NCBI RefSeq assembly: GCF_037975245.1
Contig: NC_092567.1
Span: 15,679,876-15,743,875 of the forward strand
DNA length: 64,000 nucleotides
Origin: Apostichopus japonicus
Taxonomy: Eukaryota > Echinodermata > Holothuroidea > Aspidochirotida > Stichopodidae
Direction: 5' to 3'
Below the pieces are notes generated by a model. It was not told the origin of the DNA, made no database searches, and worked only from the letters and a program-made list of their open reading frames with translations. Both the position numbers and the translations under genes were made by a program. This document shows positions 6,059-37,400 of the stretch, one piece after another (position 1 is the stretch's first letter; each line of letters starts with the position of its first letter).

Positions 6059-9004
6059 GTAAGTATTGAATTATTTGCTTTATCTTAACCGTAACTATAT
6101 GACACATTAGTTTATCTTAAAATAAAGGATGTTACTATACGACAGTAAAAGATCATCTTACTCACTTTAGAGTATAAATCTTTATATGATACTGGTTTTT
6201 AAATATAATAATGATGCTTATTAAGAATGACATTAAAATTTCTATAAATGGTCTTTTTAACAAAGCGTCGTCACTTAGATGTCCAGAAGAACTGTTTATT
6301 GAAGAAGGGAGCATCCACGTAGTCAACTGTTCACTCACCACGTCTACACTTACAGAGCTATACTGGTTCGTAGGAAATAGTACGAGCTCATTACCCATCG
6401 CGCAATTGGTATCTGGTGTCCAACACGTTTGGCCAGTGCAACACTACGATATCAGCGACGATGGTTCACTTATCATCAAGAGCGTTGGTCGTAATCAGAC
6501 AGGTCCTTACACCATCTTGCACTTCATGGAAGATGACGAGAAGGAACATGACACCGTGTATATAAATCTTATAGGTAATGATCATGTTATACAAGTAAAT
6601 ATGAAAGTCAGATCAATTTGATAAGATAAGATCTAGAAAACTGTTAGAATCAAACATCGAACATATTACATACCCGCTTACAATCATTTATCGAATAATC
6701 ATTCGAAAGTGACTGTTTTCCCATTACCTCTTGTTTGAAATTATTAGTGGCGATTCTTTTACTGACATGAATCAATGTAGTTGTTCCTCTGGCTTTGTAA
6801 ATACTCTACTTTCTGAAATTCAGCGAGCGGGTAGGATAATGAATCTTGTATATCACAAGATGCTTGTTTAATCTTCCTTATTCGATTTTGTTTTATTCCA
6901 TTAGAAGAGCCGTGTCCAATGATAGACCAGTGTACCTCATGTGAAGATTGTCTAATACAAGCCACTGAAGATCTAATATTTCTCACGTGCACTATCACCA
7001 GTCCAACCACAGAGAAAATATCACCAATCTGGACTTACAATAATGGAAGTATAATTCAAGGTCGAATACACGAAGAACGACTGTCGGATAATTCGTGGAA
7101 TGTCAGTGTCAGTTTGCACATTCAAAGCTTGAAATGTGGATTGACAGTTTTGCTATGCTCCAGTTCCATAAGAGGACATGATAAAACAGTAAGGGATGCT
7201 AGAGTAAATGTAACGTTTGGTGAGTGGTTTTTGTTGTATTGTTAGAATTTAGGTTATTATGTATAACCATTACTCAGACCCATTTATTTTATGTCATGTA
7301 ATGTTATGGTCAAACCTGATATTCTTACTTTCAGTGAAGTCAAAAACAGGAAGTGTCAAACTATGTCAAAGAGACATTCCAAACGGAATTTATTTGATTA
7401 CCAACACATATACGCGTTTAGTCAATTTCGACAAAAATAACTGGGATACTTTTTCGAACTATAATCTCGTGTCTAACCTATAGTTAATGCTGCCCTACAT
7501 AATGATGAACCTGATATGAAAGTTTACTTTTAGATTGAACATAATTTGTGCATGAAAAATCAGCTCAAAGCACCGTATTGCGTTCGTAACGTACATACAT
7601 GAGCACAGAGTTTAATTAGATGTAATAAGCAAGAAAGTGTCATAACGCATTCTGAATTAAGTTGTGTTAAGATTTCAGGTGTTTTGCAGTTTCATTAATT
7701 AGATGTGTAATTGGTCCAAGTTACGGGACAGCTAAAAAATCATCATTAAAATAATATCTTTCTTGTTTCAAATTTTCATTTAGATTTGTTTATATGTTTG
7801 TCTTTCTGTCACTGTCATTTACATTATATTTACTTATGAACCTATGCGTATGTTTTTTTCATTTCATATTAATAGTGTCATGTGATGATTTACAAATACC
7901 TGATGATGGAAATGATCCGATTCTCATTGTGACGTGCGTCATTGCAATCGTGATAATTCTTACTACGACTGTACTTATTGCACTGTATTGCGGTAAGTTA
8001 CTTTCTATTTAACAGTTTTACCATTCTATCAGAAAAAGAGAAAGAAAAATCGCAATGCTCACATTGCACAGAAAATAGATAAGCCAAAAAATATTAAGTG
8101 CAACAGGAGATGTATCTACATAAAGGCCCATGTTGCAGTTTACATTTATTCACATGTTGTATAATATCTTCCCGATCCCCTCTGGTAGGTCTACATGCAA
8201 AGTTGGTCGATAATTATAACAGTTCACTTTCTTACATTGTGCACATATTTTGTCATACAAAGGTTAGGGCATGTAGCACTAATACGTTGAAGATAAATGT
8301 TTTACAGGAGGTAATTACAAAATGCGAAGGCATCAAGTCATGAAATTCATGAAAGCATAATTCCTCCCAACAAGAAATAACTTTGGTAATAATAATTTTG
8401 GTAATGCTGTCGTTGGTTCAAGTTCATTTGCACAGTTTTCAAGTATACATACATTTCGTGGATAATGATTGATAAATCCAAGTATAAGAGACCTATTGTA
8501 ACGTTTACATTGCAGTAGATATCCACAGATTTAAGAATTGTGTATAGCCTCAGGTTTGCCCGATTGGTCATTGAATTTCAAAGCATGTTGTTACCTGCTA
8601 ACTTGCAATTTATGTAGTCAACCTTTCATCAAAAGATATGGTAGCTTTAACATATTGTTCTAATACACCTTTTGAAAAACCAAAAAATCAAGTGATCAAG
8701 TGATCAATGACAAACGTCACAATGAGACGCTTGAAGAATGGCAGCAATGAGTGATACACGAGTAACGAGAAAAAGCCGATCCAACAAGATCCTAAGAATA
8801 AGACCTTTAAAAGTGATCGAGATATTAACCAAATGGTAACAATCCTTAGCCTGCAATTGATGTGCTTGAAAGGAGGCTTAATGCGTTCAAAATGTTAAGA
8901 TATTAAATTACGTAAGATTGACAGTTTTTGTGATAAAAAGTACACCATTTCGATTTTTGATACTTTTGACTAATATGTGGCCAAAGATTACCTGAATTCT
9001 TTAT

Positions 9005-9043
<39 letters not shown>

Positions 9044-10192
9044 TTATTCTTGTCCATTTATTGATATCAACGAAGACTGTGTGATATGTTGTGAGTTCCT
9101 ATTTAATTTATCGAATTTCAAACAGGTCGCAGTTGCAATAGAAAGACGAAGAATGAAGATGAAGATGGAAAGGAAGATGAAGATGTAAGTTTGCTGAAAG
9201 CAAAGCTTTTCATTCATGTTTTAATTACAGCAATTACATTTAAGTTTTTCTAATTTGCATGTAAGCTCCAAGATTTTCATCACTGTGCAAGTAGCTTATT
9301 AGTTACACTATGGATGATACAAAATGAGCGATAGTAGCAGTTGTTACTCGTCGTTTGCATGTATCAATGTACAATACTATGATTGAAGCAAATGCTAGAA
9401 CAGAGGAAAATATCTCCACAATACAGATATCGCAAATAATTTACATTCGTGAGAGGAAAAAAATGTTAGAAAACTACTAATAAATACTGCAAACTGTTAA
9501 AATTGTTTCATAATCGACGGTGGTGACTACGATGTTCTGTTATGTCGATCTGTCTTTCACATTGAGTACGTTTGTTATTAATCTCACCTTTTTTGCAGCT
9601 TAAAGAAATCGAACCCTTGATCGACCGGTTCTTGAAGACACAGTTACAAATTGTAACTCCTAAAGGAGAACGGAAAGAGATGTCCGCTGCATCTTTCTTC
9701 AATTCTGATGTCGAATGGAAGAACACGAAGCGTATAATTTTTTTAGGGGATATTTTAACTGAAGAAACGCCGATTGTTAAACAGGCAAACTCGATGTGCT
9801 CTAAGGAGAACTACGATGAAACCCTTTTTATTGTTGATTTAAAGGAACTTAATTTTAAAGCAGATTTTGCTAAAGAAATTCATAAACAATTACCTCCAAA
9901 CAGCAAGTATTCTCTAGGTGAAGTAAATGACTTGTTATCGAGCAAGTGTTGGTTGATATTAGATGGTGGTGGTAAACCGTTGGAGCTACCGAAGCCTCCT
10001 GATTTGGAAGAAGATGTCGATGTAGATAAACTCACAACATTTGATATGTTATGTAAAAATGAGAATGATTTGCTAAGAGTTTGGGTTACTTCTTTACCTT
10101 CAGATCCTAGTAATTATTTCAAAGCTTATACGAAAATATATTTTCCGAAATCTAATGAAAATGAAACACAGAGCTCAATAACAAATCTTTGA
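5992..10192 (+). CDS. Ig-Ig-TM receptor with degenerate NACHT-like tail
   Basis: Six exons close in frame to 1461 nt (486 residues): 5992-6058 signal peptide; 6266-6574 Ig domain 1; 6905-7219 Ig domain 2; 7876-7992 membrane helix; 9126-9184 acidic linker; 9599-10192 NACHT-like tail and stop. The first four junctions are phase 1 and the last is phase 0. The protein should be a type I single-pass membrane receptor. The tail aligns with the NACHT exon at 31.5-30.1 kb, for example KQLPPNSKYS with KQLPEDCKIE and RVWVTSLP with RIWLTSRP. However, the Walker A position reads GDILTEET instead of GDIGCGKT, so the P-loop glycines and Lys are gone. The Walker B-like run LILDGG remains. Translation stops soon after the sensor-like motif, so the second half of NACHT and the winged helix are missing. 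Nucleotide hydrolysis is therefore unlikely; a decoy or regulatory partner of the intact NACHT receptor is possible. Family placement is firm, function is inferred. Confidence 0.8.
6266..6574 (+). CDS. Exon: Ig domain 1 (A/B-strand Cys subtype)
   Basis: A 309-nt phase 1-1 exon begins SSLRCPEELFIEEG and contains VVNCSL, the core Trp in YWFVG, and YDISDDGSLIIK. The place where an Ig F-strand would read D-x-G-x-Y-x-C is TGPYTILHF, with no Cys. The same subtype is used four times in the minus-strand gene at 42-37 kb. Confidence 0.8.
6905..7219 (+). CDS. Exon: Ig domain 2 (F-strand Cys subtype)
   Basis: A 315-nt phase 1-1 exon with B-strand FLTC, core Trp in PIWTY, and F-strand VLLCSS. Its Cys-rich start (CPMIDQCTSCEDC) and the late SWNVSV run resemble the single Ig domain of the genes at 1 kb and 60 kb. 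Donor is GTGAGT. Confidence 0.8.
7335..7483 (+). CDS. Possible alternative last exon giving a secreted form
   Basis: A good acceptor (attcttactttcag, ending at 7334) opens a phase-1-compatible frame of about 49 codons ending in TAG at 7483. It starts VKSKTGSVKLCQRDIPNGIY. If joined to Ig domain 2 it would end the protein before the membrane helix. No poly(A) signal was found close by and the peptide is not recognised, so it may be intronic chance. Confidence 0.25.
7876..7992 (+). CDS. Exon: transmembrane helix
   Basis: A 117-nt phase 1-1 exon codes for a short acidic stalk (DDLQIPDDGNDP) and a hydrophobic helix of about 22 residues, ILIVTCVIAIVIILTTTVLI. Acceptor is ttaatag and donor GTAAGT. 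Confidence 0.8.
9008..9041. repeat. (TA)n microsatellite
   Basis: An uninterrupted TA dinucleotide run in the intron between the membrane exon and the linker exon. Confidence 0.95.
9126..9184 (+). CDS. Exon: acidic cytoplasmic linker
   Basis: A 59-nt exon (phase 1 in, phase 0 out) codes for a basic stop-transfer start, RSCNRKTK, followed by an acidic run NEDEDGKEDED. It stands where the other NACHT receptor has its micro-exon array and shares no residues with that repeat. Confidence 0.65.
9599..10192 (+). CDS. Exon: truncated NACHT-like domain, P-loop lost
   Basis: Acceptor ttttttgcag, phase 0, 197 codons and a TGA. The order matches the start of a NACHT module: pre-P-loop run, degenerate P-loop (GDILTEET), FIVDLKELNF, LILDGG, and RVWVTSLPSDP. 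No frameshift or internal stop is present, so the loss is by substitution and early termination rather than wholesale decay. Confidence 0.8.
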   Translation, partial: LKEIEPLIDRFLKTQLQIVTPKGERKEMSAASFFNSDVEWKNTKRIIFLGDILTEETPIVKQANSMCSKENYDETLFIVDLKELNFKADFAKEIHKQLPPNSKYSLGEVNDLLSSKCWLILDGGGKPLELPKPPDLEEDVDVDKLTTFDMLCKNENDLLRVWVTSLPSDPSNYFKAYTKIYFPKSNENETQSSITNL

Positions 10193-23692: not shown

Positions 23693-25325
23693 ATACAGTG
23701 ACATACTATTCGCCAAACACGGGGAAAACGTTCGTTTTAGTTGAGAAGCAACAGTCGGTGACAAACAACCCCTACCACCCCATCCGAACATTCACTATAT
23801 GTTACGATACTGTTGATCCAAACCAAGTTTGTTTTACTGCCTAGTCGTCTTTATCTTAGGATACAAGAAACCTCTGGAATAAAGTAATACCACATCTTGT
23901 TCATACTTTTTCTTATGAAAAGATCAGACTTTAAACTTTTCATTATAAAATTGATTATATCAAACTGCAATATTGTGGAAAGTTGTAAAGTCTTTCAATT
24001 GGTGTTCATAGAGTGCACTGTTTAACTCATCCCCGTAAGGTATGCAGTTTGCGTTATTAAACAGAATGTATATAGTGAGCTCAATGGAAATGTAAAAGTA
24101 ATTGTACGGGATTATGTAATTCTTGTGTGGAAGTAGATGCTAGGTAGACATGCAACATTGTCTTAGCTGGATTGGTCTCGTAATACTTGGTTAAAGTAGG
24201 TTCAATGAGGAATGGACAGCTTTCTGGTGAGATAAGAATAGAGGATAGCTAGCCTGCTCAGTTGGAGAGGGGCGTGAAAGTAACTCTTGGAGGAGACAGT
24301 TAGCAGTGTATTGTAATGTGGCGAATATCGCCTGTAGCTCGGTGGAGATGTTACTATCGTTACCCCTGGGGGAAATTACTTGGTAGGCCTAGGATGCCTA
24401 GCTCCAACAAGCACCACGCAAATTAAATGATTAAAAAGTTAAGATGATTTTAACATGATTTATTCTCTCCGGGATACAAATAATTGTTCAATTAAAAGCT
24501 GTAAAATTACTTGAAGATACTGCATGATTGGAAACAATTAATATGTATAAATTATTTGGCATCTTATACTGATCGTGAGAACTGGATGATTAAGTTCCAG
24601 GACTAATTTGCCTCTATAAAAAACCGGCTGATATCTGATCTGATCCATGATTGGTTCAAATATTACCTACTACTGTAAATGAACCAATCATGAGTAAGAA
24701 AGAAAACAACACGTGGTCCTAATTTATTCCTATGATTTTCTCTGTCTGAAAATACTGGCTCCTAAACTAAACGTCTGAAAATGGACCGAACAATTTCTAA
24801 TGTATTTCTTTGTTCGTACACCGTGGGAATTAACGAGGGGAGGCTCGAAGGTCAAAAGGTTAAAGGGTTAAAGACCTTGCAGGTGTTGGATAGGAACTTA
24901 AAGGGGCTAGAGTATCACTTTATGACAGTATTTCTATTGCAGAAGGATTATGCAATATTTCAACAGTGTATGAGAGTGTGCCATAGTTTTTACCCTGCAA
25001 GATAAGATCTCAAATATCTCTTGGAAGAAATATACCAGGTTCATTGTGATTATCTGTGGATATGGCTCTGTTGGTACTGATTGAACCAACGACACGTAAC
25101 TTAAACTTACAATCGACTAAACAAATAAGGGTAACACCCTAGTACAACTGAACAAGTAACCTTTTATTATATAAATATAAAAAAGCACTATACGACTAGT
25201 GCGTACATAACTCTCTAATGTTATTAGAGAATTACTAAACCTTGCAGGTTACGTTATTATTGATATAGAGGGAAATTCTCACCGGACTTGTTTTTTTCCT
25301 TTTTGTGTTTGCAAATAACTACGAG

Positions 25326-26151
25326 GGAGCGAAGCACATTTAAAACTGCTGCAGTGCCCACTGACCCAATATTGCTCTGGCTCGGACCTGTTTTTCTGTT
25401 CGGTACTTTTTCTTGGTTATCACAAATCACGGTTTCGTTGTCTGTCTTCAGCATTGGCCCAGGCAACTCCGTAGCACTGACCTTCACCGTTACAATATTT
25501 TCCGTCATCTTTAGCGTCATATTTCTGAAAAGAGGATTCCAGGTCAAAGATTTTATATGCGCAATCTGTTCCACTGGTGGAGTGGCTTTAATAGCCATTA
25601 CAATCGATCAAGAAGAGTTGGTTATAGCCCAGTTTACCATACCGGTACCATACGGTATCATCTCGGCCCTCCTCGGAGCGATGACCTTCGCTGCCAGTTT
25701 CATCATTGGAAATCACCTAGCTTCATATGACAGTTCACACTCCATCGTAAATGTTCTCTCCTACGCATGTCAGTATTCTTTAGTTGCCTTGGTTCTGTGT
25801 ACATTGTTCAATGGATGGTCGATCCCCGAGACAACCCTGGATGTCCTCATTTTGACATCCACGGGTCTGACCACTTTTGGAGGAGTCTTATTCAGTTACC
25901 TTGCACTCGACAGTGAAAACCCCACAACCGTGTCAGTAATAATGACGTCACAGGTAATATTTAACTACGTTGGCCAATTCATATTCTTCGAGTATCGTTT
26001 TCACTGGGAGATACTTGCCGGGTCAATTCTGATTGTCGTATCGTGTATTGGAGTCCTGCTACGAGGCGAGGGCGAAGAGCATGAAAATAATGATAATGAA
26101 ACAAAATCTGACGATGGCCAACAGAACGAGCATCAACCAATTTTAGAATAA
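25326..26151 (+). CDS. EamA/SLC35-like transporter, C-terminal part
   Basis: An open frame ending at TAA 26149-26151 codes for about 275 residues with seven to eight hydrophobic helices and a hydrophilic, acidic C-terminal tail. The last part (TTVSVIMTSQVIFNYVGQF, then an HWEILAGSILI helix) has the layout of the second EamA repeat of the drug/metabolite transporter superfamily, and SLC35G-like carriers are the nearest family I recognise. The start used is a likely acceptor AG at 25324-25325 behind a pyrimidine run; no Met of the right context exists in this exon. The missing first two or three helices should be in upstream exons, but none was found between 10.6 and 25.3 kb. It may be a gene with a far 5' exon or a 5'-truncated copy. 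Substrate is unknown; a multi-pass membrane location is clear. Confidence 0.65.
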
Positions 26152-30093: not shown

Positions 30094-31457
30094 TCAGTTG
30101 TTATCAATAAACATAAGAATTCTTTTTTTCCTACCTGCATCGTTTTTATTTGATGATTTGCGAAAATCCCTCAATTTCTGCTCATCTGTGCTCACATATT
30201 TAGCAACACAAAGTTCTTGTATGAACTGGTGGCGACACCTAAAGCCATAACTAGTATTCGTGCTGTCCTTATCAAATTTACCTTCACCTGAATTAGGACA
30301 AATTTTCAGAATGCCGCACAACAAACTGATATCTCTTTTCCCTTCTTTTAGCTGCTCTATGGATAATGTATTCTCTTTTAGAAATAATCTGCCTATCATT
30401 AGTTCCATACTTTCAATGGCTGTAGCTGTTAGGATATGTTTCGTGACCACAACATGGCGTAGATAGAGACACTTTACGAGTCCTTTAATGATTGATGGAA
30501 AGGAAGTAAGATCGATACCGACAGTATGCTTGTTCATGATGCCATATTTGCTAGACACAAGAAGTTGAATAACAATCCCCATAAGAAGAGCATCTTCATC
30601 AAGTTTCAATAAATCATTTTTTTCAAGAATTGACCAAACTGAACGGCTTATAACATTAACATCATCATTACCATGTGGCTCTACCTCTGTTCCTCTGCTG
30701 AGTTCTTGGAAATTTTTAATTGGAAACTGAACTTGTTCCTTTAACGTTTTGTAGTAGATACACATTTGTTTTATATACGACTTTAAATCATCTTTTTCAA
30801 ATGATAAAAAGTTAACGACAGCGAATGAGTCACGGAACTGAGAAGGAAAACAGGGTCTCGAAGTCAACCAAATTCTTACATTATTATTGACTTCAGCAAT
30901 TTGAATAAACTTTTGAAACGTCAAATAACTTTGCTCACCACTTTCCTTGCGACCAAGTTTTGAATTTAAATCTGAAAATTCGTTACTGCCATCAAATATC
31001 AACAGACATCTTTCATTTTTAATAATGAACTCTATGTTTTCAATTTTGCAATCTTCTGGTAGCTGCTTTGAAATTTCCTCTGCCATATTTCCATTCAGAT
31101 TTGTATTTTGTAGGTTGAGGAAAAATAAAAATATTTCATCAGTTTTCATCTGCGAAAATAACAATGATACCTGCTTGACAAAAGAAGTCTTGCCACATCC
31201 AATATCTCCGACGAACAAAACACGTCTGACTGTTTTGCTCTTATCTGACTGAAAGAAAGAATAGGTAGACATTTGCTCCGTTTTTCCATCAGGCCATGTG
31301 ATAAGTACTTGCATCTCAGCGTAGAGGTTAGTATTTGAGATCAATTGGTCGTGTTGGATGGTCTTCTTTTCTCCGTCAGTGGCAAGAAAGTATTCTGGCC
31401 AAGGTAACGGTATCGGGCAGATATTTTGGTTATAAGCCTCCATTAGTGATGTCTTAC
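30094..31457 (-). CDS. Exon: NACHT domain with intact P-loop
   Basis: Acceptor ttttatttcctag, phase 1, opening GKTSLMEAYNQNICPIPLPW. The frame runs uninterrupted for 1.36 kb to TAA at 30096-30094. Walker A, Walker B-like, sensor-like (LTSRP) and winged-helix motifs are in the expected order. A phase-1 donor candidate at 30134-30133 would shorten it to 441 codons and lead to further exons. No death-fold domain precedes NACHT. Confidence 0.85.
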
Positions 31458-34400
31458 CTAGGAAATAAAATGACGAGGTGGTGATGCTTATTACTGATGT
31501 GAGGAAGCTCCTTACTGTAAAACTCAAAATACTCTTAATTTTCTTCCCAAATAATTTGTATATAGGCTTGTGGATAGACTTGCAATATTACGTAATTTAT
31601 TTTTCCGAAGTTTAGTTCACGGTATTCTGTAAGCAAATTACATCTTCTCAATAAACTATTAAGTTACTTTTGCAAATGAATTTTCACGGTTGTTAGGTTA
31701 TGATAAAATCAAGAAGGAAATAAAAGGATTGAAGAAAATGTCACAAAGATGCTTGTTTACCAGGATGAAAACCTTTCTCTTCTGTATTCTGTTAACAAGA
31801 ATGTAAAATATAGGTTGTTATAGACAGGAAGGCTGGTACTACATTAGTATTTAACGTTGAACTTATATTTGTCTGATGAACTAAACGAAACATGTTGAAA
31901 AACTTATATGAGATGGACTGAAATCTGACGAAATATGTTGATTTTGTATTAAATATATTTGCCAACGAAAAAAGTTTGACTGATTGAATAAAATACATCA
32001 CCTGGTTACTTCCAGAGTCTTTAGCGCACCGAGCTAATGAAAAAAATATATATATAATAAACATTCTCTTCAAAATATGACAGCTTGGAATATCTCCTCG
32101 ACTTTTCCTCAAATTCGTACCTAAAAATAGTTAATTTAATAGCTGCTTAATATTTACGTACGTTTTTTGATAGACTTGCAATATTACGTAATTTATTTTT
32201 CCGAATTTTAGTCAACGATTTTCATTTAACTATTAAGTTACTTTTCCAATGAACTTTTACTCTTGTTAGGGAATGATATTATCAGGGAAAAAATGAAAGA
32301 TTGAAGGAAATGTAACAAAAGATGTTTATTTACCAGGATGTAAACCTTTCTCTTCTGTATTCTGTTAACAACAATGTATAATATAGGATGTTATAAACAG
32401 GTATATCTTATCACTTTTAAAAATATAGAAGGCTAGTACTTAATTTGTGTTTAACGTATAACCTATATTTTTCGGATGAACTAAACGACACATGTTGAAA
32501 AACTTAAATGAGATGGACTGAGTTCTGACAAAATATGTTGATTTTGTATTAAATATACCTGTCAACGAATAAGGTTTGACTGATTGAATAAAATACACCA
32601 CCTGGTTACTTCCAGAGTCTTTAGCGCTCCGAGCTAAGGAAAACAAAAATATATATAATAAACATTCTTTTCAAAATATGAATGCTTGGAATATCTCCTC
32701 GACTTTTCATCAAATTCGTACCTAAAAATAGTTAATTAAATAGCTGCTTAATTTTTACGTACGTTTGTTGATAGACTTGCAATATTACGTAATTTATTTT
32801 TCCGAATTGAAGTCAACGATTTTCGGTTAACTATTAAGTTACTTTTCCAATGACCTTTTACTCTTGTTAGGTAATGATATTATCAGGGAAAAAAGTGAAA
32901 AGATTGAAGGAAATGTAACAAAAGATGTTTATTTACCAGGATGTAAACCGTTCTCTTCTGTATTATGTTAACAACAATGTATAATATAGGTTGTTATAGA
33001 CAGGTATATCTAATCATTTTTAAAAATATAGAAGGCTAGTACTTAATTTGTGTTTAACGTATAACCTATATTTTTCGGATGAACTAAACGAAACATGTTG
33101 AAAAACTAAAATGAGATGGACTTAGTTCTGACAAAATATGTTGATTTTGTATTAAATATACCTGCCAACGAATAAAGTTTGACTGATTGAATAAAATACA
33201 TCACCTGGTTACTTCCAGATTCTTTAGCGCTCCGAGCTAATGACAAAAAGATGTAATAAACGTTCTTTTCAAAATATGACTGCTTGGAATATCTCCTCGA
33301 CTTTTCCTTAAATTCGTACCTAAAAATAGTTCATTAAATAGCTGCTTAACTTTTACGTACGTTTGTTGATAGACTTGCAATATTACGTAATTTATTTTTC
33401 CGAATTTTAGTCAACGATTTTCATTTAACTATTAAGTTACTTTTCCAATGAATTTTTACTCTTGTTAGGTAATGATATTATCAGGGAAAAAATGAAAGAT
33501 TGAAGGAAATGTAACAAAAGATGTTTATTTACCAGGATGTAAACCTTTCTCTTCTGTATTCTGTTAACAACAATGTATAATATAGGATGTTATAAACAGG
33601 TATATCTTATCACTTTTAAAAATATAGAAGGCTGGTACTTAATTTGTGTTTAACGTATAACCTATATTTTTCGGATGAACTAAACGACACATGTTGAAAA
33701 ACTTAAATGAGATGGACTGAGTTCTGACAAAATATGTTGATTTTGTATTAAATATACCTGCCAACGAATAAGGTTTGACTGATTGAATAAAATACACCAC
33801 CTGGTTACTTCCAGAGTCTTTAGCGCTCCGAGCTAAGGAAAACAAAAATATATATAATAAACATTCTTTTCAAAATATGAATGCTTGGAATATCTCCTCG
33901 ACTTTTCATCAAATTCGTACCTAAAAATAGTTAATTAAATAGCTGCTTAATTTTTACGTACGTTTGTTGATAGACTTGCAATATTACGTAATTTATTTTT
34001 CCGAATTGAAGTCAACGATTTTCGGTTAACTATTAAGTTACTTTTCCAATGACCTTTTACTCTTGTTAGGTAATGATATTATCAGGGAAAAAAGTGAAAA
34101 GATTGAAGGAAATGTAACAAAAGATGTTTATTTACCAGGATGTAAACCTTTCTCTTCTGTATTCTGTTAACAGCAATGTATAATATAGGATGTTATAAAC
34201 AGGTATATCTTATCACTTTTAAAAATATAGAAGGCTGGTACTTAATTTGTATTTAACGTATAACCTATATTTTTCGGATGAACTAAGAGACACATGTTGA
34301 AAATCTTAAATGAGATGGACTGAGTTCTGACGTAATATGTTGATTTTGTATTAAATATACCTGCCAACGAATAAGGTTTGACTGATTGAATAAAAATACA

Positions 34401-37400
34401 TCACCTGGTTACTTCCAGATTCTTTAGCGCTCAGAGCTAATGAAAAAAATGTAATAAACGTTCTTTTCAAAACATGACTGCTTGGAATATCTCCTCGACT
34501 TTTCATCAAATTCGTATCTAAAAATAGTTCATTAAATAGCTGCTTAATTTTTACGTACGTTTGTTGATAGACTTGCAATATTACGTAATTTATTTTTCCA
34601 AATTGAAGTCAACGATTTTCAGTTAACTATTAAGTTACTTTCCAATGAACTTTTACTCTTGTTAGGTAATGATATTATTAGGGAAAAAATGAAAAGATTG
34701 AAGGAAATGTAACAAAAGATGTTTATTTACCAGGATGTAAACCTTTCTCTTCTGTATTCTGTTAACAACAATGTATAATATAGGTTGTTATAGACAGGTA
34801 TATCTAATCATTTTTAAAAATATAGAAGGCTAGTACTTAATTTGTATTTAACGTATAACCTATATTTTTCGGATGAACTAAACGAAACATGTTGAAAAAC
34901 TAAAATGAGATGGACTTAGTTCTGACAAAATATGTTGATTTTGTATTAAATATACCTGCCAACGAATAAAGTTTTACTGATTGAAAAAATACATCACCTG
35001 GTTACTTCCAGATTCTTTAGCGCTCCGAGCTAATGACAAAAAGATGTAATAAACGTTCTTTTCAAAATATGACTGCTTGGAATATCTCCTCGACTTTTCC
35101 TTAAATTCGTACCTAAAAATAGTTCATTAAATAGCTGCTTAACTTTTACGTACGTTTGTTGATAGACTTGCAATATTACGTAATTTATTGTTCCGAATTT
35201 TAGTCAACGATTTTCATTTAACTATTAAGTTACTTTTCCAATGAACTTTTACTCTTGTTAGGTAATGATATTATCAGGGAAAAAATGAAAGATTGAAGGA
35301 AATGTAACAAAAGATGTTTATTTACCAGGATGTAAACCTTTCTCTTCTGTATTCTGTTAACAGCAATGTATAATATAGGATGTTATAAACAGGTATATCT
35401 TATCACTTTTAAAAATATAGAAGGCTGGTACTTAATTTGTGTTTAACGTAAAACCTATATTTTTCGGATGAACTAAACGACACATGTTGAAAAACTTAAA
35501 TGAGATGGACTGAGTTCTGACGAAATATGTTGATTTTGTATTAAATATACCTGCCAACGAATAAAGTTTGACTGATTGAAAAAATACATCACCTGGTTAC
35601 TTCCAGATTCTTTAGCGCTCCGAGCTAATGACAAAAAAATGTAATAAACGTTTTTTTTCAAAATATGACAGCTTGGAATATCTCCTCGACTTTTCCTTAA
35701 ATTCGTACCTAAAAATAGTTCATTAAATAGCTGCTTAACTTTTACGTACGTTTGTTGATAGACTTGCAATATTACGTAATTTATTGTTCCGAATTTTAGT
35801 CAACGATTTTCATTTAACTATTAAGTTACTTTTCCAATGAACTTTTACTCTTGTTAGGTAATGATGTTATCAGGGAAAAAATGAAAAGATTGAAGGAAAT
35901 GTAACAAAAGATGTTTATTTACCAGGATGTAAACCTTTCTCTTCTGTATTCTGTTAACAACAATGTATAATATAGGTTGTTATAGACAGGTATATCTAAT
36001 CACTTTTAAAAATATAGAAGGCTAGTACTTAATTTGTATTTAACGTATAACCTATATTTTTCGGATGAACTAAACGACACATGTTGAAAAACTAAAATGA
36101 GATGGATTTAGTTCTGACAAAATATGTTGATTTTGTATTAAATATACCTGCCAACGAATAAAGTTTGACTGATTGAATAAAATACATCACCTGGTTACTT
36201 CCAGATTCTTTAGCTCTTCGAGCTAACATAAAAAATATAATAAACATTCTTTTCAAAATATGACAGCTTGGAATATCTTCCGACTTTTCCTCAAATTCGT
36301 ACTTAAAAATAGTTCATTAAATAGCTGCTTAATTTTTACCTGGTTACTTCCAGATTCTCTAACGCTCCGAGCTAATGAAAAATAATCATAATAATATCAT
36401 TAAAAAACATCCCATTCATAATATGATTGCTTGGAAGACATTTTGAAGGTTTTCTGTGTTTAAATTATCCCAAGATTTCATACTTACTTGGGTTCCAATT
36501 GCGTAATAAACAACCATAATTGATACCGAGATATACTCATTAGGCGATCACATACATGTACATATTTCGTATCTATTAAAGGAAAAGATTTCGTATCAAT
36601 TGTATTTATTTGGTTTGCTAAACACAATTCCTATCATCATTTAGTTTATGAGTTTAGAAATAATGCAGTCTGGAAGTTCTTTTATTTCTGAAATTATGCA
36701 TTAACAGTGATAATTTTCGTTGATCAAAGTATGATATAATAGAACACAACTGGCTAAATGTTAACTTGTTTCAACATATTGACGTTATGAAACATACCAG
36801 GTTGACTAGCCCAAGCGCGATAAAACCCAATAACAAGAATGATGGCTAGAATTCCCGCTAACCACGCCAGTACTGAATAAAGTCCTGAAAGATAAAATAT
36901 TAGAAACTTTGCTGCCTCTTTTTACGTATTCATGGTATGCTACGTGGTATACATTTTGGGTAAGTATTAGTATAAGGGTTACCATATATCAGAATTCCCC
37001 GGATATGCTCTCATTTGGATTTATTAAGTTAGCGCCTGGGTGGACTTACAACCTTAAAACAATCTGGAATCTTTGTTAGACAACTTTGTAAGAATTAAAA
37101 CGTTTCTGTACCGAGCAGATCAATATCAGTTTTCCCACACGAAGAGGAGAAAGGCCTCCCCTAGCCCACCTTGTCCAACAGGCCGTGACAAATTCCATCA
37201 GATATAATTTGGTAACCATTAATGCGTGCTGATTCAGCCCTTACTTGCGTTTCATCCTACATGTCAAAATCTATGCTTGTTGGTCACAATTACTGTTTGA
37301 GGGATTATGTACGGCATCGACCATCAGACGTACATTAAGAAAAGTACAGAGAGACACATAAAATGCTTTATTTCTATTAGTCCATTTGAATTGTCCCGTG

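Follow-up and report, generated by a model that had tools for sequence, protein, structure and literature searches.

The 64,000-nucleotide (nt) stretch of DNA analyzed here, referred to as the window, spans positions 15679876 to 15743875 of contig NC_092567.1 (C7) of the sea cucumber Apostichopus japonicus, and the genome searched comprises 671,581,487 bases in 35 contigs. On the minus strand of the window, a series of immunoglobulin (Ig) matches is followed by a transmembrane (TM) exon, an array of very short exon-like segments designated A and B, and an exon encoding a NACHT domain, an order predicted from the DNA. Seven stretches, taken from 7 of 10 long reading frames and including one trimmed to the NACHT exon, were submitted to Pfam. 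The NACHT domain was recognized as PF05729 (E = 1.7e-12; 48 bits against a cut-off of 26.7), while one of three Ig reading frames passed (V-set, 31.6 bits against a cut-off of 26) and the others fell under the limit (23 and 18.2). The TM exon is hydrophobic and in frame. Splice sites compatible with class 1-1 could be placed at 16 of 16 Ig matches, but only that phase was sought and some of the acceptors look poor, so the result carries no weight as a test. The domain predictions support an Ig-TM-NACHT setting for the gene that carries the array.

The array comprises nine A segments (32 nt, phase 1 to 0) and eight B segments (28 nt, phase 0 to 1), all 17 on the minus strand and arranged in the order A0 A1 B1 A2 B2 ... 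A6 B6 A7 B7 A8 B8, with a spacing of ~595 to 604 bp that defines a unit of ~600 bp. It begins with B8 at position 31761 and ends with A0 at position 36371, exactly the limits assigned to it by an earlier note on this DNA, and the copies agree with that note in showing a phase-complementary pair of exon-like segments. One A plus one B thus amounts to 60 nt of coding sequence, or 20 residues, running from phase 1 to phase 1 within ~600 nt. The dinucleotides AG and GT flank all nine A segments and seven of the eight B segments, and no segment (0/17) contains a stop in its own phase in the one genome considered. Neighboring segments are separated by 213 to 303 nt, except for A0 and A1 (117 nt); 426 nt precede A0, and 303 nt separate the array from the NACHT exon. 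Scanning both strands of the window (up to 10 mismatches for A and 9 for B) returned, beyond the array, three further B matches, each with 9 mismatches and lacking an AG/GT pair. In the whole genome (671.6 Mb; up to 3 mismatches), A with AG/GT was matched 9 times and B with AG/GTAAA 8 times, all within the array. When the whole unit was used as a DNA query, 13 matches were obtained, of which 10 are pieces of the array itself and the other 3 are short stretches in paralogs. Another 21-nt exon-like segment between A and B was considered and rejected, as its distance to A would be only 22 nt.

Since the TM exon ends and the NACHT exon starts in phase 1, the reading frame is kept with no pair at all and with any number of A-B pairs, in agreement with the frame-neutral copy number proposed earlier. 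Full-length, in-frame products are predicted with one pair (A8B8 or A1B1) and with a seven-pair chain omitting A0, A6, and B6, and 1419 strictly alternating chains of 0 to 7 pairs can be formed. The 16 segments with both splice dinucleotides total 484 nt, a sum that breaks the frame, and counting from the TM exon a first stop is reached after 101 codons; inclusion of both A0 and A1 causes a frameshift. Among the 65536 subsets of these segments, 3631 are in frame and free of stops, and the longest adds seven pairs, or 140 residues. The eight pairs and up to 160 residues announced in the earlier note therefore cannot be reached with intact splice sites, because A0 directly adjoins A1 and B6 has lost its acceptor. 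The predicted junction sequences are GTCAACCTG|GTAAGACATC for TM-NACHT, GTCAACCTG|CTCGGAGCG for TM-A, GTAACCAG|AATACAGAAG for A-B, TTACATCCTG|CTCGGAGCG for B-A, and CATCCTG|GTAAGACATC for B-NACHT.

Features of the array gene and of the plus-strand linker exon (positions in the window)
Feature	Position	Strand	Encoded peptide or remark
Full Ig match	41714-41406	minus	
Full Ig match	39669-39373	minus	
Partial Ig match	39054-38965	minus	contains stops
Full Ig match	38477-38190	minus	
Full Ig match	37876-37583	minus	nearest upstream of TM exon; V-set 23 bits, under Pfam cut-off 26
TM exon	36798..36884	minus	87 nt, phase 1 to 1; GLYSVLAWLAGILAIILVIGFYRAWASQP; acceptor ATCTTTCAG, donor GTATGT
A0	36340..36371	minus	ARSVRESGSNQ; orphan A, no B before next A
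A1	36191..36222	minus	ARRAKESGSNQ
B1	35923..35950	minus	NTEEKGLHP
A2	35593..35624	minus	ARSAKESGSNQ
B2	35326..35353	minus	NTEEKGLHP
A3	34998..35029	minus	ARSAKESGSNQ
B3	34731..34758	minus	NTEEKGLHP
A4	34405..34436	minus	ALSAKESGSNQ
B4	34136..34163	minus	NTEEKGLHP
A5	33801..33832	minus	ARSAKDSGSNQ
B5	33533..33560	minus	NTEEKGLHP
A6	33205..33236	minus	ARSAKESGSNQ
B6	32937..32964	minus	defective: AT in place of AG at the acceptor; K replaced by N; acceptor score -6.4 (4.3-5.7 in other seven B)
A7	32602..32633	minus	ARSAKDSGSNQ
B7	32334..32361	minus	NTEEKGLHP
A8	32002..32033	minus	ARCAKDSGSNQ; unit most diverged
B8	31761..31788	minus	NTEEKGFHP
NACHT exon	30094..31457	minus	starts in phase 1, ends at stop codon; Pfam NACHT PF05729
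Linker exon of plus-strand gene	9126-9184	+	59 nt; GRSCNRKTKNEDEDGKEDED

Units U1 to U7 are 93.6 to 98.3% identical in pairwise comparisons, while U8 shares 81 to 84% identity with them when the whole alignment is counted, its dissimilar 3′ end included. Within the array, the longest exact matches recur at distances of 1199 bp (387 nt, ending within B6) and 1793 bp (204 nt), corresponding to two and three units, as would be expected if unequal crossing-over or conversion had moved several units at a time. On the donor side of A0, 57 nt from GTAAAAATTAAG onward follow the end of the unit consensus with a single mismatch, and the B that belonged to A0 was probably removed by a deletion that joined A0 to this point. 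Together with the paralogs described below, two of which contain no pair and one of which retains remnants of A, these spacings uphold the earlier suggestion that the number of pairs can be changed by recombination.

Paralogs located within 270 kb display absence of the copies, a broken state, and expansion. Close relatives of the NACHT exon are present on the same contig at L052, L053, and L054 (83%, 87%, and 81 to 83% identity, respectively), with a 35-residue remnant at L055. Seven paralog stretches (L052 to L058) were searched on the minus strand for A and B with up to 11 and 9 mismatches, respectively, and at least one splice dinucleotide; under these settings, neither segment was found in L052 or L055 to L058. 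L052, taken together with L056, contains 12 Ig matches; its TM exon is bordered by AG and GT, its NACHT exon is open over 454 codons, and these two exons lie ~0.42 kb apart and would join directly in the same phase. In L053, one B-like match with 9 mismatches lies upstream of the TM exon and was taken as chance. L053, whose NACHT exon is open (443 codons), was rejected as a second intact gene with zero pairs because CCG stands in place of CAG at its TM acceptor and the 12.9 kb of L053 and L057 yielded no Ig match, which leaves L052 as the sole zero-pair comparator. L054 contains two A-like matches, and both have lost the donor because the end of A runs into the pre-TM intron. Its NACHT exon is interrupted by a TGA as well as by a frame break, and the 13.9 kb of L054 and L058 likewise yielded no Ig match. 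Seven tandem copies of the TM exon are present at the L054 locus (5659-2099, minus strand); five of them code for a less hydrophobic peptide of the SVMESLAVIRANI type, and of the two hydrophobic ones, one bears AT at its acceptor in place of AG. Twelve Ig matches precede the TM exon in L052/L056, compared to 4 full ones in the window gene, which indicates that the number of Ig exons also varies between paralogs.

The introns of these paralogs bear on the age of the array. The L052 intron contains a stretch matching positions 31682-31628 of the window, whereas the L053 intron instead matches from position 31604 on, which suggests that the two retain different parts of the intron following B and arose by separate deletions from a longer ancestor. 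Local matches were used for this comparison, as a multiple alignment made from the 3′ portions of the introns paired stretches that looked non-homologous and was discarded. Based on these matches and on the A copies kept in L054, the cassette-bearing intron looks ancestral. The NACHT exon yielded a dN of 0.080 and a dS of 0.108 against L052, and a dN of 0.064 and a dS of 0.128 against L053, values that point to weak constraint.

We consider it somewhat probable that A and B represent a genuine ancestral cassette of two micro-exons, amplified in the window gene, lost or disrupted in its paralogs, and serving as an optional, flexible spacer between membrane and NACHT domain. The array anatomy, the phases, the paralog differences, and the spacing of multi-unit matches were observed, and from them we infer that the cassette is ancestral and was lost elsewhere, that mRNA includes A and B, and that they act as a tether. 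Neither A nor B would be frame-neutral alone, and together they would form a class 1-1 block, like the TM exon, encoding a polar spacer of 20 residues between the membrane helix and the NACHT domain. From an ancestral cassette residing in the TM-NACHT intron, unequal crossing-over would have built the array of the window gene, L052 and L053 would have lost the cassette, and recombination would have disrupted it in L054; its copy number could drift because zero to n pairs all keep the frame. The pre-mRNA would then give rise to a mixture of receptors containing 0 to 7 pairs, accompanied by out-of-frame products that lack the NACHT domain, and the spacer would most likely act as a flexible tether with weak or no constraint on its sequence. 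The use of A and B in mRNA seems somewhat likelier than its absence, and a tuning of receptor spacing is put forward as a hypothesis. We regard as doubtful the wider proposal that phase-locked micro-exon pairs of variable copy number alter the membrane-to-NACHT distance between transcripts and individuals and that mis-pairing can switch the NACHT domain off.

Conservation of the segments was compared with that of their surroundings using two-sided tests for variable columns and one-sided tests for A against its upstream flank. Some of the oldest A copies favor an exon: A0 differs at 2/31 sites compared to 18/63 in the flank (P = 0.010), copy b of A in L054 at 3/31 compared to 16/58 (P = 0.041), and copy a at 2/31 compared to 12/58 (P = 0.068), the latter keeping ARSAKESGSN since both changes are synonymous. 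Several observations weigh against the ancestral cassette as an exon in current use. These conservation tests are small and the two L054 copies are not independent, and A8 is no better kept than its flank (2/31 compared to 5/71; P = 0.64). Selection inside the array was sought with variable columns and synonymous counts, no constraint was seen, and the argument was dropped: variable columns amount to 5/60 in segments and 43/448 in introns for U1 to U7 (P = 1) and to 7/60 and 79/420 for U1 to U8 (P = 0.21), and U8 differs from the consensus at 3/60 segment sites and at 53/425 sites in the homologous intron part (P = 0.13). By our own count, one synonymous change (A1) and eight non-synonymous changes separate the window copies, the latter lying in A0 (two), A1, A4, A8, the E/D site, B6, and B8, while random changes would give 38:133. 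The earlier note had taken rates equal to those of the surrounding unit, combined with stops in other alleles, as evidence against its reading; the first was found for the recent units, whereas no copy in this genome carries a stop. In addition, strict alternation is interrupted by two defects (the B missing between A0 and A1 and the lost acceptor of B6), the absence of a recognizable cassette from L052 shows it to be dispensable, and the argument from separate deletions is weakened because the L052 stretch lies under two overlapping alignments. Taken together, the flank and column tests make A look like an old exon whose present copies drift; that some of the oldest A copies are better conserved than their flank can be stated with moderate confidence, the evidence being mixed.

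Alternatively, A and B may once have been an exon pair, with the array now lying in an intron that is always spliced out, TM joined directly to NACHT as in L052, and both copy number and sequence drifting neutrally, which we view as a real possibility although not a probable one. The in-phase TM and NACHT exons of cassette-free L052, the equal variation of segments and introns in U1 to U7, the dead acceptor and the missing B, and the out-of-frame sum of all intact segments fit such fossil exons; the lower divergence of A0 and of the L054 A copies relative to their flank does not, nor does the absence of own-phase stops from 17 of 17 segments, although nine random changes would avoid a stop with a probability of 0.63. 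The same out-of-frame sum could instead act as a switch, in which splicing in every intact segment in order would cut the protein short once the membrane helix has been made, skipping or strict alternation would give the full receptor, and splicing efficiency would set the ratio of the NACHT-less to the full form. The stop after 101 codons and the number of in-frame, stop-free subsets (3631 of 65536) are compatible with this idea, yet the frame breaks in only two places (A0/A1 and B6) and out-of-frame mRNAs would probably be destroyed by nonsense-mediated decay, and we rate it as very unlikely. Least probable of all is that A and B are accidental exon-like segments in an AT-rich, satellite-like unit. 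Using generic splice matrices, with thresholds (4.0 for acceptors and 5.8 for donors) set after the array had been seen, an in-frame open pair of 15- to 60-nt segments, present in U2, was recovered in 0.5% of 1000 dinucleotide shuffles of U2 and in 1.3% of 388 half-overlapping 600-bp stretches from both strands of the remaining window. One in-frame exon-like segment by itself arises more readily (5.0% of shuffles and 5.7% of stretches), which detracts from the preferred reading. This test is suggestive, but not overwhelming, in favor of a genuine exon pair; chance is further opposed by the fit of A and B to the phase of both neighboring exons, by the exclusively synonymous changes in copy a of L054, and by a linker exon with the phases of A in a sister NACHT gene of the window.

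This sister gene lies on the plus strand. At 8 of 8 loci compared, among them the sister gene itself, plus-strand NACHT relatives in the cluster carry a linker segment in the same place, similar at the DNA level, and its phases were read in the sister gene. There, by eye, the linker runs from phase 1 to 0, as A does, since it lies between a TM exon (from position 7876) that closes in phase 1 and a NACHT-like exon that opens in phase 0. The linker shows a 6-nt gap at four loci and longer insertions at two, and from these length differences a variable tether length may be a habit of this gene family. The NACHT-like gene in the window (9126-9184 and 9599-10192) reads GDILTEETP at the Walker A region, compared to GDIGCGKTS in the gene described first, and its protein may therefore not bind nucleotide. 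A possible alternative last exon of the sister gene at 8308-8360, entered in phase 1 and followed by a stop, would, if used, give a NACHT-less form. Elsewhere on the plus strand, a reading frame at 25264-26151 belongs to the EamA transporter family (PF00892; E = 2e-14).

Two Ig-TM-NACHT receptors have been described in A. japonicus, namely, AjNLRC4 and AjNLR-new (PMC8699970 and PMC13133943). In the available parts of these reports, AjNLRC4 has Ig domains, a TM segment at 483-503, and a NACHT domain at 600-757 (PMC8699970), and AjNLR-new is described with NACHT outside and Ig inside the cell (PMC13133943). The window gene resembles both in predicted domain content, reported membrane location, and species. 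Two AjNLRC4 primers match the genome at 25/25 and 24/25 positions. AjNLRC4 is probably located on a contig other than that of the window gene, as EX-F (24/25) falls at C16:4497304 and a NACHT match at C16:4501458 lies 4 kb away, although EX-R had no exact match in 7.7 kb around this site. The AjNLRC4-IN F primer (PMC8699970) has one genome match with up to 2 mismatches, at C14:1474164 (L059), in a gene that by our own reading is sequestosome-like and not Ig-NACHT. In the available text, the words "linker" and "exon" gave 0 matches in PMC8699970, and "exon" gave 0 and "repeat" 7 in PMC13133943. If transcribed, the array would allow asking whether the length of the tether is important in the membrane-bound NACHT receptors of echinoderms; these are reported to be active in phagocytosis of Vibrio (PMC8699970 and PMC13133943).

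The array is best read as a tandem exon duplication, a known kind of arrangement, with homologous copies placed head to tail in a frame-neutral unit, here in the unusual form of a composite class 1-1 cassette of two asymmetric micro-exons. In titin (PEVK) and nebulin, frame-neutral exons or exon blocks are multiplied in tandem; the unit of the array differs in consisting of two micro-exons of complementary phase that contribute 60 nt of coding sequence in 600 nt. It would offer a clean natural case of linker exon multiplication, in which it takes two asymmetric micro-exons to make up the smallest unit that keeps the frame. No array of this kind was described among the literature matches listed (titles and abstract openings). 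A and B are similar in size and cassette form to neuronal microexons, which are described as conserved, regulated cassette exons of up to ~30 nt and for which tandem arrays are unmentioned in the available part of the source (PMC7821500). At the level of DNA, several very short tandem exons with splice sites, one B lacking its acceptor, also make up a micro-exon array. Schistosome micro-exon genes (MEGs) likewise carry very short exons, MEG-26 has an internal duplication with a repeated exon-length pattern, and alternative splicing has been proposed to vary their proteins, according to the parts available of PMC5825161 and PMC10526429. Unlike the symmetric exons of MEGs, the sea cucumber segments (32 and 28 nt) are divisible by 3 only when taken as a pair, and this pair sits between a membrane helix and a NACHT domain.

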